Source: Desulfolithobacter dissulfuricans (GTDB taxonomy: Bacteria > Desulfobacterota > Desulfobulbia > Desulfobulbales > Desulfobulbaceae). Taken from it: a stretch of 64,000 nucleotides of DNA. Made by a program: the position numbers and the translations under genes. The stretch covers positions 1,587,219 through 1,651,218 of the forward strand of contig NZ_AP024233.1 in the NCBI RefSeq assembly GCF_025998535.1, read 5' to 3'. Shown here piece by piece: positions 3,294 to 58,300 of the stretch; within the stretch, counting starts at the first letter, position 1; each line of letters begins with the position of its first letter. The notes under the pieces are model-generated. The model worked only from the letters and a program-made list of their open reading frames with translations. It made no database searches and was not told the DNA's origin.

Positions 3294-3413
3294 GAACGGA
3301 AAACAAGGCCTGCGATCCAGGGCCCCCCGGGCCAAGGTGATAGAAACCGGCCTGGACCATCGCACTCCATATTGATTTTCATATAAAAACAGTTACCAAA
3401 GGGAGTTACCAAA

Positions 3414-5621
3414 GTGTCGAAGATCATCTGTTCCGCAGCAATACGTGGCGCCAAGAAAATCATTGACATGGCAGAAGAATCCTATGAGGAGGCCCTCAAG
3501 AAATATGGACCGGAACAGGAGGTTTCCTTCCCGAATACGGCCTACTATCTGCCCATCATCTATTCTATTCTCGGTGCAAAGGTTGAAAAACTCGGCGACA
3601 TGAAAGACATCTTTCAGGAGTGCCGCAAACTTCTGCCGCCGGTGGTCAGTGAGGACATCTGGCTGCCCTATCTGGGCCCGGCCCTGGACGCCGGCATGGC
3701 GACCTTTTTTGCCGAAGAAATGTTCGAGGCCATCCGCTACCTGAACGAGCCCAACTTCTATACCAAGACCGAGGATCCCTCCGAGGACAATCTCTGGCTC
3801 GGTGCAGCCGATGACGTTATCTTCCGGAAGCGTGGTGTTGAGTTCGTGGACGGTACAGCTCCCGGTTTTGCCGCCATCATGGGTACCCCGGAAGACAAAG
3901 AGGTGGCCTCCCGCATCGCCCTGGAACTGCAGGAAAAGAACCTCTACATCTTCATGCACGACCAGTCCAATGGCAAGAACATGGCCGAGCTCCTGGTGGA
4001 TAACGGGGTTCAGGTCGGCTGGAACACCCGGCTTGTTCCCTTTGGCAAGTCCTATACCTCGGCCGTCTTCGCCATCGGTTTTGCCTGCCGGGTAGCACTG
4101 GCCTTTGGTGGTATCAAGCCTGGAGATTACAAGGGTAACCTGATCTACAACAAGGATCGGACCTTCGCCTTCATCATGGCCTTTGGTCCAGTATCCGACG
4201 AATGGTATGCCAATGCTGCCGGAGCCATCAACTGGGGCTTCCCGACTATCTCCGACTGGGATATCCCCGAGGTACTGCCCACGGGTATCTGTACCTACGA
4301 GCATGTGGTCTCCAACGTTCCCCACGACGAAATCGTCCAGAAGGCGATCGAGGTCCGCGGACTCAAGGTCAATGTCACCAAGATCGACATCCCCATGGCC
4401 TTTGGTCCGGCCTTCGAGGGCGAAAGGATCCGCAAGGACGACCTGTTCATGGAATGCGGCGGCGGGCGGACCACCGGTGTCGAGGTCCTGATTTCCCGGG
4501 AGATGGACGAGGTCGAGGATGGCAAGGTCATCCTCGAAGGTCCGGATATATCTGACATCGAAGAGGGCCAGAACCTGCCCATCGGTATCCTGGTCGAGGT
4601 TGCCGGCCGGGAGATGCAGTCGGATTTCGAACCCATTCTCGAGCGCCAGTTCCATCACCTGATCAACTACATCCAGGGTATCATGCATATCGGCCAGCGG
4701 AACATCATGTGGATTCGCATAGGTAAGGGTGCAGTTGAAAAAGGATTCTCTTTCAAGCATATCGGTGTCGTTCTTCACGGAAAACTTCACCAGGAGTTCG
4801 GGGCCATTCTCGATAAGGTACAGGTCAAGATCTACACCATCCAGGAAAAGGTGGACGAGGTCATGCAGCTGGCGCTCAAGGTCTACGAGGAACGTGATCT
4901 GCGCCTTGGCTCCATGACCGACGAGACCGAGGAGGTCTTCTACTCCTGTACCCTGTGTCAGTCCTTTGCTCCCAGCCATGTCTGCGTCATCACACCGGAA
5001 CGTATCGGTATGTGCGGGGCCTACAACTGGCTCGATGGCAAGGCCTCATACCAGATCAACCCCACCGGCCCCAACCAGCCCATTCAGAAGGGTGAGTGTC
5101 TGGACGAGCTCAACGGCTACTATGCCGGTATCAACGAATTTGTGGCCCAGGCCTCACGCGGGGCTGTAACCCAGGTCAGCTGCTACTCTCTGATGAACAA
5201 CCCGATGACCGCCTGTGGCTGTTTCGAGGCCATCGCCGCCATGCTCCCCCAGTGTAACGGCATTATGGTCGTTAACCGGGATTACCGCGGTATGACACCG
5301 TCGGGAATGAAGTTCACCACCCTGGCTGGCATGGCTGGTGGCGGTATGCAGACGCCGGGCTTCATGGGCGTGTCCAAGCATTACCTGACCAGCAAGAAAC
5401 TGTTCATGGCCGAGGGCGGACTCAAGCGTGTGGTCTGGCTGCCCAAGATGCTCAAGGACGAACTGGCTGAAAAACTCAAGAAACGGTGCGAGGAGATCGG
5501 CATGCCCGAGCTCTTCGACATGATAGCCACCGAGGAGCAGGGGACCACCGAGGAGGAGATCATGAGCTTCCTCAAGGAGAAGGGCCATCCTGCTCTGGAG
5601 ATGGAAACAGCCATCGGCTGA
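3414..5621 (+). CDS. acsB: Acetyl-CoA synthase, CODH/ACS beta subunit
   Basis: This 735-residue protein condenses CO, a methyl group from the corrinoid protein and CoA into acetyl-CoA at the Ni-Ni-[4Fe-4S] A-cluster. The six A-cluster cysteines known from the family are all present: C512, C515, C524, C534, C601 and C603 (in YSCTLCQSF, SHVC, GMCGAYNW and ACGC). The length fits bacterial AcsB of about 730 residues. The start is GTG at 3414, with GGGAG at 3401-3405 eight bases upstream. No nearby ATG has a comparable site. It lies 120 nt after the MetF-AcsD fusion and before acsC, a typical ACS gene order. No missing key residue was seen. Confidence 0.97.
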   Translation: MSKIICSAAIRGAKKIIDMAEESYEEALKKYGPEQEVSFPNTAYYLPIIYSILGAKVEKLGDMKDIFQECRKLLPPVVSEDIWLPYLGPALDAGMATFFAEEMFEAIRYLNEPNFYTKTEDPSEDNLWLGAADDVIFRKRGVEFVDGTAPGFAAIMGTPEDKEVASRIALELQEKNLYIFMHDQSNGKNMAELLVDNGVQVGWNTRLVPFGKSYTSAVFAIGFACRVALAFGGIKPGDYKGNLIYNKDRTFAFIMAFGPVSDEWYANAAGAINWGFPTISDWDIPEVLPTGICTYEHVVSNVPHDEIVQKAIEVRGLKVNVTKIDIPMAFGPAFEGERIRKDDLFMECGGGRTTGVEVLISREMDEVEDGKVILEGPDISDIEEGQNLPIGILVEVAGREMQSDFEPILERQFHHLINYIQGIMHIGQRNIMWIRIGKGAVEKGFSFKHIGVVLHGKLHQEFGAILDKVQVKIYTIQEKVDEVMQLALKVYEERDLRLGSMTDETEEVFYSCTLCQSFAPSHVCVITPERIGMCGAYNWLDGKASYQINPTGPNQPIQKGECLDELNGYYAGINEFVAQASRGAVTQVSCYSLMNNPMTACGCFEAIAAMLPQCNGIMVVNRDYRGMTPSGMKFTTLAGMAGGGMQTPGFMGVSKHYLTSKKLFMAEGGLKRVVWLPKMLKDELAEKLKKRCEEIGMPELFDMIATEEQGTTEEEIMSFLKEKGHPALEMETAIG

Positions 5622-19632: not shown

Positions 19633-19769
19633 CACATTCTCCTTGCTGGGATTTGTCCACTCCAGGCACCGGTGTTTATTGGGCACCAGCCGGTATATAT
19701 AGTCCGAACCGGCGATATCGGCCAGGTACTTTTCAACACTTTTTTCTTTTTCAGGCAATGATTTTTGTT

Positions 19770-19895
19770 ATTACCACTGAAATTCAGCCACCGATACCTG
19801 AAGGTGTCGGCCTCACCTGTTTCACGGGTGTCTGTGGCCTGGATGGCCACAGTCAAGCCCCTAGGGACGGGTTTATGGCGTCCCGTAAAACAGGT
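19770..19895 (-). repeat. Structured repeat B, copy 1, 3' part (interrupted by group II intron)
   Basis: This matches the right part of the intact copy at 52988-53159 on the opposite strand. The other part is at 21921-21962, on the far side of the intron. It includes the inner hairpins GGGACG...CGTCCC and TGTGGCC...GGCCACA. The arm CAGGT (19891-19895) pairs with ACCTG (19815-19819). Confidence 0.9.
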
Positions 19896-19998
19896 GTAGA
19901 GTAGAGCGCTGTCAACAATGATCTTCAACGACTATGCCCTGCCGCACGCGGCTACTACATATCAGAGGAGGTCTCATTGCGGACAGCGCCCCCTCGTC

Positions 19999-20031
19999 GA
20001 ACCGGACGTGCGGTTTTACCGCATCCGGCTC
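19999..20031 (-). ncRNA. Group II intron domain V, copy 1
   Basis: The minus-strand sequence GAGCCGGATGCGGT...ACCGCACGTCCGGTTC folds into the 33-34 nt catalytic domain V hairpin with a GUAAAAC-type loop. It is identical to 47521-47553. Confidence 0.93.
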
Positions 20032-20057
20032 TCCGATGATCTCTCGCCTCAAGGCAT

Positions 20058-21415
20058 TCACAGGGAGTTGACGGCTCTTTTATGCAGATAGACCAGCCCC
20101 TTAGACATGAGCGCCCTGTACAACGACGCTCCAGCAAGGTGCCGGCAGTGCCGGTGACTCCGTGTCCTCATAAAGCGACTGAACCGGGTCTGCACGTACC
20201 AGTCAAGCGTCTTGAACGATACCTTCGGGTATCCGAAGGAAAAGTAGTTGCCCCAGCCAATCAGAAATCGATTGACGTGGTCAATTACTTCTTCTACCGG
20301 CTTTTGAATCCTGCGAATCGTCAGAGCATGTATCCTTTCTCGCGCCCGTTTCAAGCTCTTGGCAGAAGGGACAATGTTCAGGTACCGGCCCGCTCCGTAC
20401 AGACTGCGATCAAAGCGGAACGTAAATCCAAGGAAATCAAAACTACTGCCGGGATCTTTCAAGTTAACTATGGTTGTCTTGTTCCGATTCAGGATCAGGT
20501 CGAGTTCCCCAGCGTCTTGTCAACAAAGGCGTGAATGCGAGGTCCGATGTACCGAGCCATGATAACCCAGTCGTCGGCATATCGTACCAGCCTTGCGTTG
20601 GCAAAATTGCGGGGACCTTCCGAGCTGTGAAAGCGTTGGTCGAATTCATGGAGAAAGATGTTGGCCAGCAGAGGCGAGATGACTCCACCCTGTGGCGTAC
20701 CCTTGCGGGAGCGAGTGATCTTGCGACCGCCCTGCCCATCCTCTTCAACGATATCGCTTTTCAACCACATCCTGATCAGCTTCAAAACGGATCGGTCAGC
20801 TATTCGACGCTCCAGGCATTGCATCAGTTTGCCATGGTCAATCGTGTCAAAGTAGCTGCTCAGATCCGCATCCAGGACTTCAGTAAATCCCGCCTTGAGC
20901 GCCTGCCGAATCGCGGCGAGAGCATCATGGGCCTTAAGGCCCGGGCGGAATCCGTACGAGCAGTCCTCAAAGTCTGCCTCGAAAATCGGCTCCAGGATCA
21001 ACAGGACCGCCATCTGTACAACCCGATCCTTGACGGTCGGGATACCCAGCGGACGCATCTTTCCATTCGCCTTTGGGATATAGACCCGTTTCACCGGCAT
21101 GGGCCGGTAGGTCTTATCCTTCAATTCCTGCTGTATTGTTTGCAGCAGGCCTGCTACACCTTCCGAACTCTCCTTGATGGACGCAAGGCTTACTCCATCC
21201 ACCCCGGCAGCGCCTCGATTGGCGTAAACCCGGTTCCAGGCACTTTGCAGTACATCCAGGCGATACACCCGATCGTACAGGGCATAGAATCGAAACTCCG
21301 GTTCCTGCTTGGCCTTGTGGCCCAGTTTCTTTCGCAAGAGGGAGACCTTCGGGCTCAGGCCGAACTCCTGCCCTGCCCGTTTATCCGTAGTGGGAGACAA
21401 ACATGTGTACTCCAA
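20058..21415 (-). pseudogene. ltrA: Group II intron reverse transcriptase/maturase, frameshifted copy
   Basis: The first 303 residues match the intact copy at 46136-47494, including the YADD active site. The frame then breaks at 20507-20510, where a run of five G has become four (sense strand). The frame resumes at about residue 305 (starting near [11 protein letters not shown]) to the natural stop at 20058. Adding one G gives a full-length 452-residue protein. If the loss is real, this copy lacks the maturase (X) domain in its main product and would depend on the other copy in trans. It may equally be a sequencing error. Confidence 0.9.
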
Positions 21416-21920
21416 GCGGGACTTCCTCCATTGTCAGAAACACGATCAAAGTCCTGCCCCTTCGCTCCACGGGAGTTACCCCGCTTCAACACTACTATGG
21501 GCAGGTCCGACTCCCGGCCGGGACCGCACAGAGGGTTATGCATTCCCCTCCAGCGTTTGGACTCGGGCTATCTGCTGCCCTGCCCGTCCCGCCGGGTCTC
21601 CCAGGTTCCCTGGCGCTCCCTTGAGTACATGCCATCTCCAAACACCCCGGGCGGCCCAACGCAACGCTCCTGTTGTCTCATCGCGTCAATGACTGGCTTC
21701 CCCATGACCTCGGAGGGTCGCCGCCGCCAAATGTGTAACGAGGCCGAATCGAGTTCACAGATGTTACGGCCTATACTCTATCTGACCTTACGGCCTTTTC
21801 CGACCCTGCTTGACGATTCGGGTTACCCCTACACGCCGGGTCGGCGATTTCGCGGTGAACAGGCAATTACCGCGGGTGGCATCGCAGCCACCAGGTTCGC
21901 CAGAGCTTCGCCTGGCACAC

Positions 21921-21962
21921 GAGGTCGACACCGGTTTCAATGCTGAAGATTGATGGTAATCA
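21921..21962 (-). repeat. Structured repeat B, copy 1, 5' part
   Basis: This is the 5' exon side of the intron. On the minus strand it reads GATTACCATCAATC...GGTGTCGACCTC and joins the intron exactly after GACCTC, as in copy 2. Confidence 0.92.
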
Positions 21963-22173
21963 GATTGTTTTTTTCTCTGCTTGTCGGCGGGATCGAGTGT
22001 TTCTTCTCCCTTTTGCAAACCGTCCTGAGGCAGGGTCCAGAGGAGTGAGCCGGCCGAGCCGGAAGGTTATTTTCAGTCGGGGACAAATATCTGTTGCAGC
22101 CTTTGAACGCCGGCGTTATGAAGCCAGCATAACATCAGGGGAACAGTGAACCTCAATAAAAGGCACCCGAGCC

Positions 22174-38137: not shown

Positions 38138-38151
38138 ATATTTTTTTATCC

Positions 38152-38283
38152 GAAAATCACCACAAGTTTGGATAATTCCATTGTTATTTTCATATGTCGA
38201 AGTCTTCGCTATCTGTTGTGGCTGGGCCGTGCCGAAACCCGGAGTCTCCCTTCGGTCGCTTACCTGGTCCAGCCATGCTGGTT
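38152..38283 (-). repeat. Dispersed repeat A, copy 2 (inverted)
   Basis: This is the reverse complement of 23662-23793 with few differences. It lies 14 nt upstream of the rlmN start and so supplies its leader and perhaps its promoter. Confidence 0.9.
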
Positions 38284-38324
38284 TATGTGAAAGTCTCGTC
38301 CCACCCTCCAAGGGGACAACAGCT
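38284..38324 (-). repeat. Dispersed repeat C, partial copy 3
   Basis: On the minus strand this reads AGCTGTTGTCCCCTTGGAGG then GTGGGACGAGACTTTCACAT. It matches parts of 15587-15616 and 17302-17340. It directly adjoins repeat A, so the two modules can occur together. Confidence 0.75.
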
Positions 38325-38381
38325 CGATGACAGCTGAGCTTTGTAGGTAATCACCTTTTTTTGTATTCCGCACTGCCTGCG

Positions 38382-45575: not shown

Positions 45576-45587
45576 AGAAAAATTTTT

Positions 45588-45630
45588 CTGATTACCATCA
45601 ATCTTCAGCATTGAAACCGGTGTCGACCTC
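45588..45630 (+). repeat. Structured repeat B, copy 2, 5' part
   Basis: CTGATTACCATCAATCTTCA through GGTGTCGACCTC, identical to 52988-53030. The intron starts exactly after GACCTC. Confidence 0.93.
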
Positions 45631-46135
45631 GTGTGCCAGGCGAAGCTCTGGCGAACCTGGTGGCTGCGATGCCACCCGCGGTAATTGCCTGTTCACCGCG
45701 AAATCGCCGACCCGGCGTGTAGGGGTAACCCGAATCGTCAAGCAGGGTCGGAAAAGGCCGTAAGGTCAGATAGAGTATAGGCCGTAACATCTGTGAACTC
45801 GATTCGGCCTCGTTACACATTTGGCGGCGGCGACCCTCCGAGGTCATGGGGAAGCCAGTCATTGACGCGATGAGACAACAGGAGCGTTGCGTTGGGCCGC
45901 CCGGGGTGTTTGGAGATGGCATGTACTCAAGGGAGCGCCAGGGAACCTGGGAGACCCGGCGGGACGGGCAGGGCAGCAGATAGCCCGAGTCCAAACGCTG
46001 GAGGGGAATGCATAACCCTCTGTGCGGTTCCGGCCGGGAGTCGGACCTGCTCATAGTAGTTTTGAAGCGGGGTAACTCCCGTGGAGCGAAGGGGCAGGAC
46101 TTTGATCGTGTTTCTGACAATGGAGGAAGTCCCGC

Positions 46136-47494
46136 TTGGAGTACACATGTTTGTCTCACACTACGGATAAACGGGCAGGGCAGGAGTTCGGCCTGAGCCC
46201 GAAAGTCTCCCTCTTGCGAAAGAAACTGGGCCACAAGGCCAAGCAGGAACCGGAGTTCCGATTCTATGCCCTGTACGACCGGGTGTATCGCCTGGATGTA
46301 CTGCAAAGTGCCTGGAACCGGGTTTACGCCAATCGAGGCGCTGCCGGGGTGGATGGAGTAAGCCTTGCGTCCATCAAGGAGAGTTCGGAAGGCGTATCTG
46401 GCCAGCTGCGAACAATACAGCAGGAATTGAAGGGTAAGACCTACCGGCCCATGCCGGTGAAACGGGTCTATATCCCAAAGGCGAATGGCAAGATGCGTCC
46501 GCTGGGCATCCCGACCGTCAAGGATCGGGTCGTGCAGATGGCGGTCCTGTTGATCCTGGAGCCGATTTTCGAGGCAGACTTTGAGGACTGCTCGTACGGA
46601 TTCCGCCCGGGCCTTAAGGCCCATGATGCTCTCGCCGCGATTCGGCAGGCGCTCAAGGCGGGATTTACCGAAGTTCTGGATGCGGATCTGAGCAGCTACT
46701 TTGACACGATTGACCATGGCAAACTGATGCAATGCCTGGAGCGTCGAATAGCTGACCGATCCGTTTTGAAGCTGATCAGGATGTGGTTGAAAAGCGATAT
46801 CGTGGAAGCGGATGGGCAGGGCGGTCGCAAGATCACTCGCTCCCGCAAGGGTACGCCACAGGGTGGAGTCATCTCGCCTCTGCTGGCCAACATCTTTCTC
46901 CATGAATTCGACCAACGCTTTCACAGCTCGGAAGGTCCCCGCAATTTTGCCAACGCAAGGCTGGTACGATATGCCGACGACTGGGTTATCATGGCTCGGT
47001 ACATCGGACCTCGCATTCACGCCTTTGTTGACAAGACGCTGGGGGAACTCGACCTGATCCTGAATCGGAACAAGACAACCATAGTTAACTTGAAAGATCC
47101 CGGCAGTAGTTTTGATTTCCTTGGATTTACGTTCCGCTTTGACCGCAGTCTGTACGGAGCGGGCCGGTACCTGAACATTGTCCCTTCTGCCAAGAGCTTG
47201 AAACGGGCGCGAGAAAGGATACATGCTCTGACGATTCGCAGGATTCAAAAGCCGGTAGAAGAAGTAATTGACCACGTCAATCGATTTCTGATTGGCTGGG
47301 GCAACTACTTTTCCTTCGGATACCCGAAGGTATCGTTCAAGACGCTTGACTGGTACGTGCAGACCCGGTTCAGTCGCTTTATGAGGACACGGAGTCACCG
47401 GCACTGCCGGCACCTTGATGGAGCGTCGTTGTACAGGGCGCTCATGTCTAAGGGGCTGGTCTATCTGCATAAAAGAGCCGTCAACTCCCTGTGA
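46136..47494 (+). CDS. ltrA: Group II intron reverse transcriptase/maturase
   Basis: The 452-residue intron-encoded protein has RT blocks through [53 protein letters not shown] and the active site VRYADDWVI, then FLGFTFRF and the maturase X domain ([14 protein letters not shown]). There is no C-terminal HNH endonuclease, so retrohoming would need nicked or single-stranded target DNA. The start is TTG 46136, with GGAGG at 46122-46126 nine bases before it; no in-frame ATG with a ribosome site was seen nearby. It promotes splicing and mobility of this intron and perhaps of the frameshifted copy. Confidence 0.95.
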
Positions 47495-47520
47495 ATGCCT
47501 TGAGGCGAGAGATCATCGGA

Positions 47521-47553
47521 GAGCCGGATGCGGTAAAACCGCACGTCCGGTTC
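47521..47553 (+). ncRNA. Group II intron domain V, copy 2
   Basis: GAGCCGGATGCGGT...ACCGCACGTCCGGTTC is the catalytic hairpin with conserved AGC-type base and 2-nt bulge. It lies 27 nt after the maturase stop. Confidence 0.93.
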
Positions 47554-47656
47554 GACGAGGGGGCGCTGTCCGCAATGAGACCTCCTCTGATATGTAGTAG
47601 CCGCGTGCGGCAGGGCATAGTCGTTGAAGATCATTGTTGACAGCGCTCTACTCTAC

Positions 47657-47785
47657 ACTTGTTTAACGGGACGCCATAAACCCGTCCCTGGGGGCTTGAC
47701 TGTGGCCATCCAGGCCACAGACACCCGTGAAACAAGTGAGGCCGACACCTTCAGGCATCGGTGGCTGAATTTCAGTGGTAATCAC
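47657..47785 (+). repeat. Structured repeat B, copy 2, 3' part
   Basis: This is the right part of the repeat, nearly identical to 53031-53159. ACTTG (47657-47661) pairs with CAAGT (47733-47737), a covarying equivalent of the ACCTG/CAGGT pair in copy 1. Confidence 0.92.
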
Positions 47786-47864
47786 AAAAATTTTTTCTTG
47801 TTAAAAAAACGTGGCCTGGGAACCGACCGTGCCTGATTGTTAAAGTGTTACTTTAAGTTTCTCA

Positions 47865-49894: not shown

Positions 49895-51337
49895 ATGAAC
49901 CGGGACGTGTACCAGGAACCCCTTGTCAGCCGGTATACCAGCCGTGAGATGCAGGAACTCTTTTCTGAAAAGTTCAAGTTCACCACCTGGCGCCGCTGCT
50001 GGGTCGCTCTGGCAGAAGCACAGCATGAACTGGGTCTTTCCCTGGTCACCAGGGAGATGGTCGACGAGCTGAAAAGTCATATCGAAGATGTGGATTTCGA
50101 GCTGGCAGCAAAAAAAGAAAAAGAGATCCGCCATGATGTCATGGCCCATGTCTATGCCTATGGCAAACAGTGTCCCAGGGCCGAGGCCATCATCCACCTG
50201 GGCGCCACCTCCCAGTTCGTGGTCTGCAATACCGACCTGATCATCCAGAAAAAGGCGCTTGGGCTGGTCAAGACAGCCCTTGTCAACGTTATAGCCAATC
50301 TGGCTTCCTTTGCCAGGAAGTACAAAGAGATGGCGACGCTGGGCTTCACCCACTACCAGCCTGCCCAGCCGACCACCGTGGGTAAACGCAACACCCTCTA
50401 CATCCAGGACCTGCTCATGGATCTGGAATACATCGAGATGCTAGAAAAACAGCTCAAGGCCCGGGGCGCCAAAGGTACGGTCGGAACCCAGGCCACCTTC
50501 CTGGAACTCTTTGGCGGCGATCATGCCAGGGTGCGCGAGCTGGACCGGCTCGTTTCGAAAAAACTCGGGTTTGACACTGTTTTTCCCGTGACCGGTCAGA
50601 CCTATCCCCGCAAGCTGGACATGAAGACCGCTGAAACCCTGGCTGGTATCGGGGCCTCAGCCCATAAGTTCGCGGTCGACATGCGGCTGCTCTCCAACCT
50701 GAAGGTCCAGGAAGAACCGTTTGCCAAGAAACAGGTCGGCAGCTCAGCCATGGCCTACAAGAGAAACCCCATGCGTTCCGAGCGGATGACCGGGCTGGCA
50801 AGAAAACTGATGGGCCTGCCGGCAAATTTTGCTGCCACTGCCGCCAATCAGTGGTTTGAGCGCACCCTGGACGACTCTGCCATCCGCCGCATGGACATGG
50901 CGCAGGCCTTCCTTCTCACCGATGCCATATTGAAGCTCTACGTCAATATTACAAGTGATATGGTTGTATATCCGAAACAAATTGAAAAATATCTGCGCAC
51001 GGAACTTCCGTTTATGGCAACAGAGAAAATCCTCATGGCCTGTGTGGAACGGGGCAAGAGCCGCCAGGAAATGCACGAGGTCATCCGCGAACACTCTGTG
51101 GCCGCGGGTCTTGCGGTCAAGGAGGAAGGCCGGGATAATGACCTGCTGGACCGGCTGGCAGCCGATGAACGGATTCCCTTTGACCGGGAGGAACTCAGCG
51201 GCCTGCTCGGCAACTACCAGGAGTTCACCGGCCGGGCCACTGAACAGACCGAGGAATACCTGGACGAGGTGGTGCAGCCGGTACTGGAGAAGTACCGGGA
51301 GATGATCGGCCAGGTGGACTCCAGCCTCAAGGTGTAA
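49895..51337 (+). CDS. purB: Adenylosuccinate lyase
   Basis: The 480-residue enzyme cleaves SAICAR and adenylosuccinate in purine synthesis. HLGATSQFVVCNTD and MATLGFTHYQPAQPTTVGKR are substrate-binding segments; VGSSAMAYKRNPMRSERM is the flexible signature loop with the catalytic serine. The length and style match the human/archaeal-like PurB subgroup with a long C-terminus. AAGGAG lies upstream of ATG 49895. A small gene and miaB follow closely. Confidence 0.97.
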   Translation: MNRDVYQEPLVSRYTSREMQELFSEKFKFTTWRRCWVALAEAQHELGLSLVTREMVDELKSHIEDVDFELAAKKEKEIRHDVMAHVYAYGKQCPRAEAIIHLGATSQFVVCNTDLIIQKKALGLVKTALVNVIANLASFARKYKEMATLGFTHYQPAQPTTVGKRNTLYIQDLLMDLEYIEMLEKQLKARGAKGTVGTQATFLELFGGDHARVRELDRLVSKKLGFDTVFPVTGQTYPRKLDMKTAETLAGIGASAHKFAVDMRLLSNLKVQEEPFAKKQVGSSAMAYKRNPMRSERMTGLARKLMGLPANFAATAANQWFERTLDDSAIRRMDMAQAFLLTDAILKLYVNITSDMVVYPKQIEKYLRTELPFMATEKILMACVERGKSRQEMHEVIREHSVAAGLAVKEEGRDNDLLDRLAADERIPFDREELSGLLGNYQEFTGRATEQTEEYLDEVVQPVLEKYREMIGQVDSSLKV

Positions 51338-51338
51338 G

Positions 51339-51572
51339 GTGACAGAGGAGCGCATCACAGAGCTGTACCTGCGGATCCGTCCGGCGAGTATAGGATTCTT
51401 CAAATTCCTCCTCGAGGGGTATGACGGTCTTGCCACTCTCTCGACCCTCGATCGTACCAGGGGGCTGGTCCGGCTGATGGTCCCCTCTTCCAGGTACAGC
51501 GAACTGCTCGATGTGGTTTCGGCCCTGGCGCCCCGACTCAGGAACGAACCAGACAATCAACATGAAAATTAA
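51339..51572 (+). CDS. Small DUF4911-like protein
   Basis: The 77-residue protein starts at GTG 51339, one base after the purB stop, so it is translationally linked. The sequence (YLRIRPASIGFFKFLLEGYDG, LSTLDRTRGLVRLMVP) has the alpha/beta layout of the small DUF4911 family that often precedes miaB in deltaproteobacteria. The domain name is from memory. It has no catalytic motif. A role with tRNA modification is suggested only by position. Confidence 0.75.
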   Translation: MTEERITELYLRIRPASIGFFKFLLEGYDGLATLSTLDRTRGLVRLMVPSSRYSELLDVVSALAPRLRNEPDNQHEN

Positions 51573-51605
51573 TTTTTATTTTTATCTTATTGTGATAGCG
51601 ATATA

Positions 51606-52979
51606 ATGTCAGGATTTGTATACATCAAGACCTTTGGCTGCCAGATGAACGAGCGCGACTCGGAAATCATGGAGCACCTGCTCGGCCAGGCCGGGTACGT
51701 CACCACCGAGGTCATGGAAGAGGCTGATCTGGTCATCCTCAACACGTGCAGCATCAGGGCCAAGGCAGAACAGAAGGTCTTCAGCCTGCTGGGGCACCTC
51801 CGCCAGCTCAAGGAAAAAAAGGAAAGAAAGAATAAACCGCTGTTCATCGGGGTGGCCGGCTGCGTGGCCCAGCAGGAAGGGGAACGGATCATCAGGCGGA
51901 TGCCGCACGTGAACATCGTGGTCGGCACCCAGCAGTTCTATCACCTGCCCGATATGCTTGGCCGCCTGCAGCGTGGCGAGTCCACCAGCGAGGTGGCCAC
52001 CGACCTGTCGAGTTCCTTTGCCATTCCCGCGCTCCAGGAGATGACCTCCCCCCCTGCCCCGTCCCAGTTCCGCAAGTTCGTTACCATCATGCAGGGATGC
52101 AACAACTACTGCAGTTACTGCGTGGTTCCGGAAACCCGGGGCCGGGAGATCAGCCGCCCGGTGCGGGATATCCTGGAAGAAGTTGAAAAACTGGTCTCGG
52201 CCGGAGTCCGGGAAATCACCCTCCTTGGTCAGAACGTCAACTCCTATGGCCGGACCAACCAGGTGGCCAGTCAGGATGTAACGTTCAGCGATCTTTTGCG
52301 GTTGGTCGCCAGGACACCGGGCCTTGAGCGGCTGCGGTTCACCACCTCCAACCCCAAGGATCTCTCCACCGAACTGATGCGTTGTTTTGCCGAGATAGAT
52401 ATCCTCTGTCCCCAGTTCCACCTGCCGGTCCAGTCCGGTTCCAACCGGATTCTGGCCCGCATGAACCGCAAATATACCCGTGAACTCTACCTGGAACGGG
52501 TTGCGGACCTGCGCAGCTTTCGCCCCGATATCGCCCTGACCACCGATGTGATTGTGGGCTTTCCCGGCGAGTCCGAGGCAGACTTCGAGCAGACCATGGA
52601 CCTGCTCCGGGAGGTCCGCTACCACGGATCCTTTTCCTTCAAGTATTCCGATCGACCCGGGACCCGCTCCTCGGGTTTTGACGATAAGGTTCCCGAAGAG
52701 GTCAAAAAGGAACGGTTGGCCCGCTTCCAGGAACTCCAGGACGAGATCAGCCTGGAGCGCAATACCGAATATGTTGGAAAAACTGTGGACATTATGGTTG
52801 AATCAATTGGCAGAGAAGGAATTTCCGGGAGAACGACCACAAATCACATCGTCCACTGCCCTCCCCTGCCCGGGGTCGGGCCCGGAGATACCGTTCCTGT
52901 CCGCGTCGTCCAGGCAGGCAAGCACTCGCTCAAGGGAGACTTTGTCGGGCCTCAGCTGGAAGCCGGCGGCCGGAAATAA
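51606..52979 (+). CDS. miaB: tRNA-2-methylthio-N6-dimethylallyladenosine synthase
   Basis: The 457-residue radical SAM methylthiotransferase has the UPF0004 domain with cysteines in FGCQMNERDSE, NTCSIRAKAE and AGCVAQQEGE. The SAM cluster is in GCNNYCSYCVVPETRG, and a C-terminal TRAM domain includes GRTTTNHIVHC. It thiomethylates i6A37 made by MiaA. The gene directly abuts repeat B copy 3 (9 nt to its start). Confidence 0.97.
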   Translation: MSGFVYIKTFGCQMNERDSEIMEHLLGQAGYVTTEVMEEADLVILNTCSIRAKAEQKVFSLLGHLRQLKEKKERKNKPLFIGVAGCVAQQEGERIIRRMPHVNIVVGTQQFYHLPDMLGRLQRGESTSEVATDLSSSFAIPALQEMTSPPAPSQFRKFVTIMQGCNNYCSYCVVPETRGREISRPVRDILEEVEKLVSAGVREITLLGQNVNSYGRTNQVASQDVTFSDLLRLVARTPGLERLRFTTSNPKDLSTELMRCFAEIDILCPQFHLPVQSGSNRILARMNRKYTRELYLERVADLRSFRPDIALTTDVIVGFPGESEADFEQTMDLLREVRYHGSFSFKYSDRPGTRSSGFDDKVPEEVKKERLARFQELQDEISLERNTEYVGKTVDIMVESIGREGISGRTTTNHIVHCPPLPGVGPGDTVPVRVVQAGKHSLKGDFVGPQLEAGGRK

Positions 52980-52987
52980 AAAAAAAT

Positions 52988-53159
52988 CTGATTACCATCA
53001 ATCTTCAGCATTGAAACCGGTGTCGACCTCACCCGTTTCACGGGACGCCATAAACCCGTCCCTGGGGGCTTGACTGTGGCCATCCAGGCCACAGACACCC
53101 GTGAAACAAGTGAGGCCGACACCTTCAGGCATCGGTGGCTGAATTTCAGTGGTAATCAC
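52988..53159 (+). repeat. Structured repeat B, copy 3 (intact, empty group II intron site)
   Basis: About 172 bp with imperfect inverted ends (CTGATTACCA...TGGTAATCA). A long stem pairs 53019-53044 with 53098-53123. Two inner hairpins follow: GGGACG (53042-53047) with CGTCCC (53057-53062), and TGTGGCC (53075-53081) with GGCCACA (53087-53093). The intron insertion point of the other two copies corresponds to 53030/53031. It carries no ORF. Confidence 0.93.
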
Positions 53160-53185
53160 AAAAAAAATGCAACCGACAGCTGCCC

Positions 53186-53833
53186 ATGATTGATCTGCAC
53201 ACCCACACCTTTTTCAGCGACGGCGCCCTGGTACCGGCCGAGCATCTGCGCCGGGTCGAGGTTCTTGGTTATGAAGCTGTGGCCATTACCGACCACGCCG
53301 ACTCGTCCAACCTGGACTTCATCATTCCACGGATTGTCAAGGCCGCCCAGGACCTGAGTCCCCTCTCCAGTACCCGCCTGATTCCAGGTATCGAGCTGAC
53401 CCATGTCCCCCCTGAACTCATTGGCCCGCTTACCGCCCGGGCCCGGGAACTGGGAGCCCGGATCGTGGTTGTCCATGGCGAAACCCCTGTGGAACCGGTG
53501 AAACCGGGCACCAACCGGGCCGCCCTGGAGGCCGGAGTGGAACTGCTGGCCCATCCGGGTTTCATCTCTGAAGAGGATGCCGCCCTGGCGGCGGAAAAGG
53601 GCATTTTCCTGGAACTCTCCGGCCGCAAGGGACACAGCCTGACCAACGGTCACGTGGCCAGGATGGCGGAGAAGACCGGCGCACTCCTGGCCGTCAATGC
53701 CGATGCCCACGAGCCCGGTGACTTCCTCACCAGCGAGATGGCGAGAAAAGTCGCCCTTGGAGCCGGCCTTTCCGAGGAACGCTACAAGAAGCTGCGCCGG
53801 GACATGGCCGAGCTCGTTGATTGCCTGAAATAA
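53186..53833 (+). CDS. PHP-domain phosphoesterase, histidinol-phosphatase-like
   Basis: The 215-residue PHP protein has the metal-binding IDLHTHTFFSDGAL, AITDHADSSNLDF, PGIELTHVPP, ARIVVVHGETPVEP, LLAHPGFISEEDA and VNADAHEPGD motifs, all in family order. It probably hydrolyses a phosphate ester; histidinol phosphate is one option, but no his genes are near. ATG 53186 begins the first motif directly. The preceding repeat gives no obvious ribosome site. Confidence 0.9.
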   Translation: MIDLHTHTFFSDGALVPAEHLRRVEVLGYEAVAITDHADSSNLDFIIPRIVKAAQDLSPLSSTRLIPGIELTHVPPELIGPLTARARELGARIVVVHGETPVEPVKPGTNRAALEAGVELLAHPGFISEEDAALAAEKGIFLELSGRKGHSLTNGHVARMAEKTGALLAVNADAHEPGDFLTSEMARKVALGAGLSEERYKKLRRDMAELVDCLK

Positions 53834-54207
53834 GCTCAATGTCATAAGCGAGCCTGGAGACTCCGAAATACAATTTTTCAAGGTAGCCATAAAAAGATAG
53901 AAAGAACAATTGCCGTCACCTGTAAACTGACGACGGCTGCCGATCTCTTCTGTCCAATCCAGGTAATTCCGCATCTCTTGCATGGCCAACCGGGGCTTGC
54001 CACCCTCCTGCCCCGGTCACGGACCACTCAACTCAGATTCAGCCAACGAAGGTTCCGATAACGGATCTGCTGGGTCCACTGTATAGCTGCCATATCAGGT
54101 GGTTCATGGAAGAATCCAGCTGCCCGGGAAAGTAGACATTTCTCACTGGTGAATGCTATACCTGAAATGAGAATGTTATTCGTTATCAATCCAGACCGCT
54201 GCATTGT
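53834..54207 (+). other. Intergenic region with repeat D
   Basis: These 374 nt hold no convincing gene. GAGACTCCGAAATACAATTT through CAAGGTAGCC (53857-53888) combines the tail of the 26-bp repeat-A module with the repeat-D block of 23562-23584. Further right the sequence is AT-rich and may hold the promoter of the response regulator. Confidence 0.6.
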
Positions 54208-55236
54208 ATGAAGCCACAGAAGAAACAGCGAAAAATACTTGTCGTCGAGGATGACATCTCCCAGCGCATGCTGTTGAAAATGGCCCTGGAAGCCACCGGT
54301 TTCCAGGTCATCGAGGCGGCCAATGGCAGCGAAGCCATTGGGTTCTTTGAAAGCGATGTCGATATCCGCTTTGTCATAACCGATCTCAACATGCCGCTGA
54401 TGGACGGTTTTGAACTGATAAGCGAAGTCCGACGCAAGGAGCGGCGCTACACGTACCTCATTGTTCTGACCAACAGGGACAACAAGGAAAGCGTCACCAG
54501 GGCCCTTCGGGCCGGGGCCGACGACTACCTCACCAAGCCGGTATGCCAGGACGAACTGAATCTCCGGTTGACCGCCGGCGAACGGCTGCTTCGCCTGGAA
54601 AGCCAGGAAGAACTCATCCTCTCCATGGCCAAACTGGCCGAATACCGGAGCCAGGAAACCGGCTTTCATCTGGAAAGAGTCCAGTACTACACCCGCCTGC
54701 TGGCCATGGACATCCATGGTCATCATCCCGAGCAGAAGCTTTCGGTATCCATGGCCGACGAGATAGCCCGGGTCAGCCCCCTCCATGATCTCGGCAAGGT
54801 CTCCATCCCGGACCATGTGCTCCACAAACCCGGCCGTCTGACCGATGAAGAATTCGCAATGATGCAGAAGCACACGGTCTTCGGGGGTTCCATTCTGCTT
54901 GAGCTGTACGAGAAAACCCATGACAATTACCTGCTGGTAGCCTACCAGGTGGCCATGTACCATCATGAGAAATGGGACGGCAGCGGCTATCCGCACGGAC
55001 TCAAAGGCGAAGATATTCCGCTGGCGGCCCGCATCGTTGCCTTGGCCGATGTGTATGACGCGGTGAGCAGTAACCGCTGCTATAAAAAATGCATGGACCA
55101 CAACCTGGCCAGATCCATCCTGTGCAACGGCCGGGGCACTCATTTCGACCCCATGGTTGTCGATGCCTTTCTCCGTCAGGAAAATGTGTGGTTGACGATT
55201 CGGGAAAAATATGTCGATGAAGACCATGTTCAATGA
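54208..55236 (+). CDS. Response regulator with HD-GYP c-di-GMP phosphodiesterase domain
   Basis: The 342-residue RpfG-like protein has a receiver domain (ILVVEDD; phosphoacceptor D59 in FVITDLNMPLMDG; K in YLTKPV). After a helical linker comes an HD-GYP domain with H193-D194 in SPLHDLGKVSIP and HHEKWDGSGYPHGLKG. It should hydrolyse c-di-GMP when phosphorylated. The hybrid kinase gene begins 66 nt downstream and is the likely phosphodonor. No DNA-binding domain is present. Confidence 0.94.
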   Translation: MKPQKKQRKILVVEDDISQRMLLKMALEATGFQVIEAANGSEAIGFFESDVDIRFVITDLNMPLMDGFELISEVRRKERRYTYLIVLTNRDNKESVTRALRAGADDYLTKPVCQDELNLRLTAGERLLRLESQEELILSMAKLAEYRSQETGFHLERVQYYTRLLAMDIHGHHPEQKLSVSMADEIARVSPLHDLGKVSIPDHVLHKPGRLTDEEFAMMQKHTVFGGSILLELYEKTHDNYLLVAYQVAMYHHEKWDGSGYPHGLKGEDIPLAARIVALADVYDAVSSNRCYKKCMDHNLARSILCNGRGTHFDPMVVDAFLRQENVWLTIREKYVDEDHVQ

Positions 55237-55302
55237 TATAAGCTCCCCGTTCCACCTCCCCCCTTTCCCCTTTTCCAAGCAGACCTGCCCCCGGGCCGCC
55301 TT

Positions 55303-58300
55303 ATGAAAAAATCATCACCCATTGTCTACGGCTCCGTTCTGGCCGTGGTGACCCTCATTATCGCCGCCCTGATCTTTATCGGCAAGATCAACCGCCAGAG
55401 ACAAGCCCGCGAGATTGATGTCTACCAGCAATTCGTGGAATTTGAGACCAAGGGACTCCTGGGCCGCTTCGAACAGCTCCGGACCCTCAACCACCTGCTC
55501 ACCAGTGACCCGACGATTCTCGATACCCTGGGCCGGTACAAGAAAGGACTTACTCCCGATTCGGGCGCCATCGACACCATTGACACCCTGCTCCACAATA
55601 TTGCCCAGATCCAGCATGTTTCCACCGCCTACCTGCTCGATACCTCCGGGACCTGCGTATTTTCCAGCCACCCGAGTTTTATCGGCCATGATTACAGCTT
55701 CCGGCCCTACTTCACCCAGGCCCTGACCAGGGACCATGCGATCTATGTGGCCCGAGAGATAACCTCCCACCAGCTCGGAATCTATCTCGCCCACCCTATA
55801 GCCGCCGGCGAGAACGTCCTCGGGGTCGCGGTATTGAAAATCGATCCGGCCTTTTTTGATGTATCCCCGATTTTTTCCTTCACCGTCCTGCCGCTGGACC
55901 AGAACCAGCTCCGCGTGGGGTTGGTGACGGAGCAGGGTGTTTTTGTCGATATCCTCGGCAATACCCTGCATGCCATGGAAACTCTGGACCCTGAACAGAT
56001 AAAACAGCTCGAAATCTCCAGGCAGTTTCCGGTCAAGTCCATCCAGAATCTTTCCTTTCCTCCCGGAACCTGGGCCACGGTCAAGCGGTCCGGTTTTTTG
56101 CAACAGTCGGCCGGTGGCCAGCAATACTATCTCTTTGCCCGCCCGCTCGGTACCACCGGGCTCTTTTTTGTCCACATGGCCGAGAGCGCCTGGTTCCACA
56201 GCGCGGTCCAGCCCATCTCCGGTTTTTACAAGGCTCTGCTCCTGGTTTTTGCCTTCATGCTGGTCATTGCCTGCGCGCTGATCTATCTCTTTGACAAACG
56301 CCACCGGACAATCCTCGAACAGTCCACCGTCCTGGCCGAGAGCGAAGATAAACTGCGGCTCTTCTCCAAGGCCGTCGAACAAAGTGGCAACAGCATCATC
56401 ATCACCGACAGCCGGGGCGACATCATCTACGTCAATCCCCATTTCACTCGGGTAACAGGATATACCCTTGCGGAAGTGCGCGGAAAAAACCCGCGGGTGC
56501 TGAAGTCGGGCTCCCAGGATTCCTCGGTCCACCAGGAGCTGTGGCAGACCCTGACGCGGGGCGAGACCTGGAAAGGAGTCCTCCACAATAAAAAGAAGAA
56601 CGGGGAGCTCTACTGGGAGGAGGCCACTATCTCGCCGATCTTTGGCTCGGATGGCGAGACGACCCATTATATCGCTATAAAAGAAGATATCTCTGACCGC
56701 GTTGCCCTGACCCAGCAGCTGCGCGAGGAAAAGGAAAAACTGCAGTTGATCGTCGAGCATGCCGGCCTTGGTATCGCTATCATTATTGAAAGACACATAA
56801 GCTGGGTTAACCAGGCCGGCGTGGACCTGTTCGGCTACGATTCGGTAGATGAGGTAATCGGGAAATCAGTCATGCTCATCCATGCCAGCGAAGAAGTTTT
56901 CCAGCAGGTTGGCAGACAGGCCTACAAACAACTTTCTCAGGAAAATACGGTCTTTAAAACAGAGATTCGTATGCGGAAAAAAGACGGCTCGCTTTTCTGG
57001 GCCGCGATCACCGGCAAGGCCCTGGACCATAAGAGACCGGACCAGGCTGTTATCTGGATTGTCGAGGATATCGATCAACGAAAGAAGGACGAAGAACAGC
57101 TGAAACAGGCAAAGAGGGAAGCGGAAGAGGCCAACGCCATGAAAAGCAGGCTTCTGGCCAACATCAGTCACGATATCCGGACGCCTCTTCATGGGATACT
57201 GGGCACCTTTTCCCTGCTTCAGGCCCAGCCGCTTGGCAAGGAACAGGAAAAGCTGGTTATCACCGGCAACCGGGCGGCCGAGTTCCTTCTCAACCTGCTC
57301 AACAACCTGCTGGATCTTTCCAAGATCGAGGCCGGACAGCTGGTGCTGGATAACTATCCCTTCAGCATCAGGGAACTGCTGGGCGAGGTCGGAGAAATCC
57401 TCGCCGGTCAGTTCAGCCAGAAATCCGTCGCCTACCGCTACCAGGTTGCCAGCTCCATTCCCGAGATCCTCATCGGTGATGCCCTGCGGATAAAACAGAT
57501 CTTCATCAATCTGGTCGGCAACAGTCTCAAGTTCACCGAGCAGGGCTCGGTGAACGTCTCGGTGGCAGGAGAAAGAGAGGAGGACGGCAACATCCTCCTC
57601 ACCTGCCAGGTCCGGGATACCGGCATCGGTATTGCGGCCGACAGGCAGGAACGACTTTTCGAGGCCTTCACCCAGGCTGACAATTCCATTACCAGGCAGT
57701 TCGGCGGCTCGGGTCTGGGTCTGTCCATATGCCGGGAACTGTGTACCCTCATGGGCGGCAGGATCTGGTTTGAGAGCAGGGAGGGCAAAGGCACCACATT
57801 CTACTTCACCCTGCGTTGCACCATCGCCAGCGACCAGAGCCTCGACAGGGACATGGTCGAGAGCAACGAGTCGGCCCCGAGCCTCCCGAAGTCCCCGCTG
57901 GCCATTTTGATTGTCGACGACAATGAGGCCAATCAGGATATCCTGCGCATGATGCTCGAGCGCGATGGCCACCGGGTCCACATCGCCGCAAATGGCCTGC
58001 TTGCCCTGGAAAAGCTGGTCGACTCCTCCTATGACCTCATCTTCATGGACATGCAGATGCCGGTCATGGACGGACTGACCGCAACGCGGCTGATCCGCGA
58101 ATGCGAGGCCGGCCTCCAGCCTGATAAAGCCAGACTGGTGGACCCGGAACTCCTGGGCACCCTCAGCCGATCCCTGCGCCACACCTATACACCCATCGTC
58201 GCCCTGACGGCCAATGCCCTCCAGGACGACAAGCGACGCTGTGAGGAGGCGGGGATGGATAGTTACCTGATCAAGCCGTTTCAGCGCGAGCAGCTGCTCC

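Follow-up and report, generated by a model that had tools for sequence, protein, structure and literature searches.

Organization of the locus

The 64,000-nt window examined here, the whole stretch of Desulfolithobacter dissulfuricans DNA that was analysed, carries a 174-bp palindromic element between two plus-strand genes (Table 1; positions are those of the window). The gene upstream, which we take to be miaB-like, encodes UPF0004, Radical_SAM and TRAM domains and its stop codon ends at 52979, while the PHP-domain gene downstream starts at 53186. The element folds as one long stem with two hairpins at the tip, at an RNA folding energy of -87.4 kcal/mol (z -9.0) and a DNA folding energy of -51.4 kcal/mol (z -8.8), and in both cases 0 of 200 shuffles folded as well. 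The sequence and the fold are as stated by the first-pass annotation, which had read a long stem with two inner hairpins from the letters alone; the hairpins lie at 53047-53069 and 53074-53094, and the limits that it gave, 52988-53159, fall one base short on each side of the exact ends, 52987 and 53160. The tip of this copy scores 89.1 bits (E 2.1e-21) against the covariance model R1, in whose seed the same sequence also stands. No promoter-like site was found at the element, and the sole terminator-like site lies outside its fold. The hairpin may have an effect on the mRNA between the miaB-like and PHP genes.

The identity of the element as a tRNA, an Rfam RNA or a CRISPR was ruled out. ARAGORN gave 0 genes in 52000-54500 and the repeats listed for 51000-56000 contained no regularly spaced direct-repeat array, in agreement with the earlier exclusion of both a tRNA and a CRISPR. 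The Rfam search that had been proposed as a check gave no family reaching the gathering cut-off at the element, where a permissive scan yielded sub-threshold matches only, and the only Rfam matches over cut-off in the window were two group II intron domains, both away from this copy.

Table 1. Coordinates of the MITE copies, their parts and the nested introns in the window
Feature	Position	Strand	Basis or remark
MITE, complete copy, 174 bp	52987..53160	+	at least 40 near-full-length own-genome matches including this copy; ends set by target duplications
Left 8-bp target duplication AAAAAAAA	52979..52986	.	1 mismatch against the right one in this copy
Right 8-bp target duplication AAAAAAAT	53161..53168	.	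outside the right end
Left terminal inverted repeat TCTGATTACCA	52987..52997	+	resembles IS1595-family element ends in relatives
Right terminal inverted repeat TGGTAATCACA	53150..53160	+	end analysis
Conserved cloverleaf tip, 73 nt: closing stem of 10 pairs and two hairpins	53035..53107	+	covariance model R1
Hairpin 1, GCC-ATAAA-CCC-GTCCCT-GGG-GGC	53047..53069	+	folds; compensatory changes across genomes
Hairpin 2, CTGTGGCC-ATCCA-GGCCACAG	53074..53094	+	folds; cross-genome covariation
Group II intron insertion point GACCTC^ACCCG, unoccupied in this copy	53030..53031	+	junctions of 9 interrupted copies
Second MITE copy, intron-interrupted	45587..47786	+	copy search, junctions, ends
Group II intron, 2026 nt, GTGTG...CTAC	45631..47656	+	Rfam RF00029 at 47519-47656; boundaries
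Intron-encoded reverse transcriptase/maturase, 452 aa	46136..47494	+	TIGR04416, E 2.9e-118
Third MITE copy, intron-interrupted	19766..21964	-	copy search, junctions
Intron with broken reverse-transcriptase frame, in third MITE copy	19896..21920	-	junctions, frame reading

Copies, ends and target duplications

The own 3.6-Mb genome gave at least 40 near-full-length matches to the element at 90-100% identity, counted among the best 40 of 104 candidates scored. By pairing the matches of end-pattern scans (68 left and 79 right ends) we counted 66 copies with a recognisable left end, comprising 54 full-length copies (33 on the plus and 21 on the minus strand), nine that are split by an intron (~2.2 kb) and three shortened to 65 bp; two left-end matches, with three mismatches each, had no partner. 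Right ends without a left partner numbered 13. By BLAST, three of them (L046, L049 and L050) belong to copies of this element that are truncated or have diverged at the end; the matches in L047 and L051-L053 are weak, with three mismatches and no family assigned, and the remainder fall within related MITE families whose ends are similar (e.g. L043, L044, L048, L054).

The copies are bounded by T(C/G)TGATTACCA...TGGTAATCA(C/G)A, which form terminal inverted repeats. Target duplications were counted in the 56 of 66 copies whose ends fit the strict pattern; these 8-bp repeats are perfect in 41, carry one mismatch in nine and two in six, and the left ones are 87% A+T. As 8-bp direct repeats outside the ends are the footprint of transposition, the element is therefore a MITE, i.e. 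a short, multicopy element without a transposase gene that has terminal inverted repeats and target-site duplications. The earlier suggestion of a nonautonomous mobile element is thus borne out by its inverted ends, its 8-bp duplications and its dozens of copies. None of 27 MITE loci had a spanning frame (30 loci were examined, three of them without recognised ends in that analysis). The counts of gene orientation around the MITEs were discarded because the naive ORF caller misjudged the complete copy of Table 1, making its two plus-strand neighbours convergent.

The 65-bp copies (L040, L041, L042) lack the palindrome. The 8-bp duplication is perfect in L040 and L041, so that the 65-bp copies are either internal deletions or moved without the tip. 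Other MITEs with TGATTACCAC-type ends and different interiors, ~170-440 bp long, were observed at L043, L044, L054, L083 and L084. A degenerate palindrome at ~38150-38355 of the window has a right end, GGTAATCACC, similar to those of the MITE and probably belongs to a different MITE family in the same genome. A larger MITE with similar ends encloses an IS110-family transposase gene (NF033542, 360 aa; L080, ~1641-3504), and at L081 (~435-2263) the sequence of this IS110-bearing insert also adjoins such an end, as read by eye.

Candidate mobiliser

In the 57 related genomes searched, the own one included, 13 had any match, and short matches to the MITE ends led to IS1595-family genes. Locus L148, in a genome of the same family as the host (G018), holds a complete element with an intact 339-aa transposase (PF12762, E 7.8e-36; also NF033547) and the terminal inverted repeat TCTGATTACCC (also noted as TCTGATTACC), beside which an AT-rich 8-bp duplication, TATATTTT, was read by eye. 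Target duplications of 8 bp are typical of the IS1595 family. The likeness between this element and the MITE lies in that AT-rich duplication and in the inverted repeat, of which only the 10 terminal bases are common to both, whereas the MITE lacks a transposase gene and differs in internal sequence. At L088 a 26-nt match (96%) to the right end of the MITE stands beside an incomplete IS1595 zinc-ribbon frame (PF12760, E 7.6e-16), and the arrangement at L093 is similar by eye. Since an intact IS1595-family transposase gene lies between similar ends in a relative, mobilisation of the IS1595 type in trans is likely, and the MITE insertions were probably made by such an enzyme. The first-pass view that these are not known IS ends needs qualifying to that extent, as they resemble the ends of IS1595-family elements in relatives.

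No IS1595 element with the ends of the MITE was found in the own genome, which has three identical 985-bp IS1595 copies with ends, TATGGCTCTTAAC, unlike those of the MITE. Because the ends of these copies are different, the mobiliser of the MITE has been lost or is unseen, and the source of the mobilising enzyme is absent from the present genome or unseen in it. One of the own IS1595 copies directly adjoins a MITE (L177, 907-1891), and the 8-mer AAAATTTA is present three times there. IS1 was rejected as mobiliser: PF03400 matched in five of the 57 genomes, and no match was found in the own genome.

A group II intron nested in the MITE

Both other MITE copies in the window are split by a ~2.03-kb group II intron that the first reading had missed. 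For the 452-aa maturase Pfam gave RVT_1 and GIIM only, with no endonuclease domain. All nine long MITE copies of the genome, two of them in the window, carry a ~2026-nt intron at the same base, preceded by GACCTC in eight and by GGCCTC in one; the reverse-transcriptase frame is open in eight of the nine, and the introns differ pairwise at 0-45 positions over ~2,020 compared columns. The whole-genome search gave 15 intron matches. Twelve are full copies, nine in this MITE and three outside it, the latter after GGCCTC, GACCCC and GGCCTC; the remaining matches are two pieces of one decayed copy abutting a truncated MITE (L046) and a 105-nt stretch of 77% identity. The MITE is the main target of this intron.

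The intron contains the complement of GACCTC, GAGGTC, a single time, at nt 210, which suggests that EBS1-IBS1 pairing is the targeting step; the intron would recognise GACCTC in the left arm of the MITE via its EBS1 and retro-insert there. For IBS2-EBS2 pairing, two exact complements were tried and both are absent from the intron. The Rfam domain match, the maturase, the GTGTG...AC boundaries and the EBS1-IBS1 complement are shared with group II introns, from which this intron differs in its favoured target, a MITE arm that holds 9 of the 12 full copies. The nesting offers a clear example from nature of a retroelement for which copies of another mobile element serve as an amplified landing pad. 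No intron-in-MITE case like this one was seen in the titles and abstract openings of the literature matches listed; the available part of PMC4853749 concerns a different nesting, of a MITE inside a group I intron. In one intron-bearing copy (L031) the tip is inverted relative to the MITE ends, as read by eye.

Distribution of the cloverleaf tip

The 25-base string ACGCCATAAACCCGTCCCTGGGGGC of the tip occurs exactly in eight stretches of public genomes, three in Desulfopila sp. IMCC35006 (Thermodesulfobacteriota) and five in Gammaproteobacteria (Halopseudomonas, two Oceanisphaera and two MAGs). The three Desulfopila stretches have TGTGATTACC-type ends, or parts of them, around the string. When a 24-base string was searched with up to 3 mismatches in the six source genomes, it gave 105, 8, 3, 20, 81 and 2 matches, against 0 for a control pattern.

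We further used a tip pattern, GCCRTRAA-NNN-RTCCMT-NNNN-GCTY, in which the inner stem of hairpin 1 was left free. Of 274 genomes sampled from the class to which the Halopseudomonas genome belongs, 25 had matches, with 0 control matches. In at least two of these genomes (G466, G530) the match probably arose by chance, as their loci, L201 and L220, show neither the fold of the tip nor a match to its model. With one match taken per locus, the free triplets are fully complementary in 25 of 30 loci, in four versions (TAC/GTA 14, TCC/GGA 6, CCC/GGG 4 and GAC/GTC 1), and are not so in the other five; L217 and L218, from two genomes, are nearly one locus. The genome G599 had 432 pattern matches in 5.1 Mb, far above any other genome scanned.

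The tip covariance model gave 51 matches over 40 sources (41 distinct rows, some loci overlapping), and several of these sources are in its seed. Of 36 further sources, 34 gave matches, 36 in all. Among 56 relatives of the host the tip was found in G034 only, on a palindrome without MITE ends, and in the own phylum in 4 of 297 genomes including the own, by a covariance-model search of low sensitivity in which the best 16 candidates per genome were scored; these results speak against a wide spread of the tip near the host. A 66-nt query found no tip on plasmids and phages, no Rfam family was over cut-off at five tip-bearing loci, and no mobiliser for the tip was found. A frame between the inverted tip pair of G484 was rejected as a dedicated gene, being by eye a gspE-like ATPase and not a transposase. 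From these matches the tip appears to be a separately distributed structured module that crosses two phyla, and its distribution suggests that it was captured by the MITE.

Covariation of the stem and behaviour of the arms

A change of one stem pair between two copies had been taken earlier as a sign that the structure is maintained. The change is real between the two other copies of the window (ACCTG/CAGGT at 19.8 kb against ACTTG/CAAGT at 47.7 kb), and the complete copy of Table 1 reads ACCCG/CAAGT there, with two adjacent C.A mismatches at the intron site. The larger alignment, of 54 own-genome copies, supports the argument in part: there are two-sided changes, at three pairs in five or more copies and at further pairs in one or two copies, while in many copies other pairs are disrupted. 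Within the element, pair 45-125 is A-T in 29 copies, G-C in 13, C-G in three and unpaired in nine. Pairs 47-123 and 48-122 are T-A in 35 and 38 copies and C-G in 8 and 5, with C.A mismatches in 8 and 9, the complete copy of Table 1 included, and pair 52-118 is T.C in 21 of the 54. The two-copy argument was thus right as read and is weak by itself.

Across genomes the case for the tip is strong. In the alignment of 36 matches 88.4% of cells pair, against 61.4% in shuffles and 35-46% in slid controls; two-sided changes occupy 230 cells against 74 in shuffles, and the covariation score is 0.627 against 0.178 in shuffles and 0.08-0.14 in slid controls. None of 500 shuffles reached these three values. 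Cruder measures on the same alignment were closer to the shuffles, with 20 against 16.4 pairs showing a two-sided change (reached by 2 of 500 shuffles) and 56 against 50.9 further pair types (29 of 500). The alignment of 51 matches scored 0.521 against 0.154, with 47 against 43.4 further pair types (70 of 500 shuffles). Both alignments were fitted to the structure, so that these figures lean towards it, and the shuffling leaves the relatedness of the rows uncontrolled. The claim of a maintained structure is weak within this genome and strong for the 73-nt tip across genomes, where its covariation is strongly supported.

The arms below the tip behave differently between genomes. In a gammaproteobacterial MAG with six copies (G058) the 25-nt arms are 0.76-1.0 self-complementary, and the left arms are 0.28-0.56 identical between copies (shuffled 0.33, sd 0.07). 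Three Halopseudomonas copies have self-complementarity of 0.84-0.96 and identity of 0.32-0.44. In at least two gammaproteobacterial genomes, then, the tip stands on near-perfect palindromic arms that are nearly unrelated between copies. The two copies of G415 have perfect arms, 0.72 identical between copies; the arms are 0.96 identical in G501 and G484 (two copies each), and those of Desulfopila are alike at 0.76-1.0, as expected of a MITE. Self-complementarity is 0.64-0.80 in G061 and weaker, 0.36-0.76, in G568 and G528. L107 gave no arm, and the very low scores in G060 (four of six copies) and for L202 reflect right arms that were truncated where the segment read ends. Two Oceanisphaera genomes share an orthologous locus at which the arms, by eye, differ partly by paired changes and partly by mismatches. 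Among 54 copies with at least 12 arm pairs, G-U makes up 4.7-5.6% of the pairs in gammaproteobacterial copies and 2.4% in Desulfopila.

These comparisons indicate that the tip stays constant while the arms can change in register. Selection on RNA, as in the structured RNA family suggested by the first reading, selection on DNA or copying from one arm to the other may each account for this. We lean towards DNA-level copying for the arms and a putative binding partner for the tip, on which the constraint could act at the level of DNA.

Relation to YPAL and other known repeats

The original paper on the Yersinia YPAL/RU-2 repeat is reportedly that of De Gregorio and co-workers in 2006. We compared the apex as printed in PMC2759123, the only paper that matched sequence strings of the tip in the literature searched. 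The available parts of PMC2229807 and PMC2759123 describe YPAL as ~168 bp long, palindromic and intergenic, and according to PMC2229807 its inverted repeats are internal, its duplications measure 3-26 bp, and its targets extend across or lie next to regions of dyad symmetry. The printed apex, GACGCCGTAAA-TAC-ATCCAT-GTA-GGCTCG followed by a hairpin with an ATCCTT loop, folds as the same tip, TAC-ATCCAT-GTA forming hairpin 1 and ATCCTT the loop of hairpin 2, and has the loop and bulge sequence in common with it. The MITE is set apart by its IS1595-like terminal inverted repeats and 8-bp duplications. Given the internal repeats and variable duplications ascribed to YPAL in that part of the source, the MITE is not a YPAL, and the module is common to both. 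Among the literature matches listed, titles and abstract openings held no description of the tip outside Yersinia, and the literature searched gave no statement of a relation between YPAL and the MITE. ERIC, RUP and Correia/NEMIS, as outlined in the available part of PMC2229807, resemble the MITE in their length of 100-200 bp, terminal inverted repeats, duplications and long stem-loop transcripts, and differ in that their ends are terminal TA and their targets of another length, whereas the tip of the MITE crosses phyla.

Interpretation and alternative explanations

At a probability of about 0.8, we consider the element to be a non-coding 174-bp MITE that was spread by an IS1595-family DDE transposase, that carries the tip as cargo and whose left arm is the main target of the intron. 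The structure, copy number, ends, target duplications and intron junctions were observed directly, as was the cross-phylum tip with its covariation. In the proposed mechanism the transposase would recognise the ends T(C/G)TGATTACCA and insert the MITE into AT-rich sites, duplicating 8 bp, and owing to this recognition the MITE would have spread through the genome. The palindrome between the ends, topped by the 73-nt cloverleaf, would travel along as cargo; the cloverleaf is a module that Desulfopila MITEs and gammaproteobacterial repeats also carry and that the apex of Yersinia YPAL shares. Against this reading, no IS1595 element with the MITE ends was found in the own genome, the L148 repeat has just its 10 terminal bases in common with the MITE, three full introns lie elsewhere, and tips were scarce among the relatives and in the low-sensitivity scan of the own phylum.

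The covariation itself may have arisen without selection, if single-strand template switching (quasi-palindrome correction) rewrote one arm from the other and so produced paired changes in one event. We hold this to be possible, at odds well short of even. The arms of G058, perfect or near-perfect yet little alike between copies, fit it, as do the low G-U fraction of the arms and the joint change of adjacent pairs (CC/GG against TT/AA); but it leaves unexplained why the loops and bulge of the tip are conserved across phyla, the mixed CC/AA copies imply that correction is not efficient in this genome, and the arms of G501, G484, G528 and G568 are alike between copies or less complementary. An element that is mainly a structured RNA, such as a stabiliser or processing site of mRNA 3' ends, with selection on the RNA and incidental mobility, is unlikely. 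Its very stable fold, the strong cross-genome covariation of the tip with conserved loops, the compensatory changes read by eye at the orthologous Oceanisphaera locus and the position of two G484 copies shortly past the stop codons of frames that were judged by eye to be xerC-like and gspE-like speak for an RNA. However, many own-genome copies break stem pairs, including the complete one of Table 1, the element has neither a promoter-like site nor a terminator-like site within its fold, and the copies bear transposition footprints; the low share of G-U in gammaproteobacterial arms fits palindrome correction on DNA at least equally.

Slightly less probable still is a decayed, inert repeat that no longer plays any part in structure or targeting. 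The mixed arm mismatches and the failure to find a matching transposase in the genome agree with decay, but nine closely similar introns occupy one and the same base, many copies are 95-100% identical and most target duplications are perfect. That the element is a classic member of the YPAL family is very improbable: the printed YPAL/RU-2 apex, with its shared loop and bulge sequence, argues for membership, which the internal repeats and variable duplications given in the available source contradict at the family level, the tip alone being in common.

The MITE is a new family with a probable IS1595-type mobiliser and is ordinary in kind; the interesting part is the tip, a structured module that crosses phyla and has no Rfam match. 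We tentatively propose, without regarding it as the likelier course, that the tip might be a phylum-crossing class of mobile or self-propagating hairpin, so far unrecognised, with YPAL and the MITE as two dressed-up forms of it. Each insertion would gain or keep locus-specific near-perfect arms by copying, probably on single-stranded DNA, via a putative enzyme reading the two RTCCMT loops. The cloverleaf ties together repeats so far treated apart, namely the host MITE, the Desulfopila MITE, gammaproteobacterial intergenic hairpins and Yersinia YPAL, and can be searched for in any genome. Ordinary transposition can hardly account for a tip that is conserved while its near-perfect arms are unrelated, and this combination makes the formation of palindromes in bacteria directly testable. 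Five Oceanisphaera loci (L123, L126, L127, L130 and L131) have two tip matches each, often as inverted doublets ~160 nt apart, an arrangement that we take to be reminiscent of REPINs.
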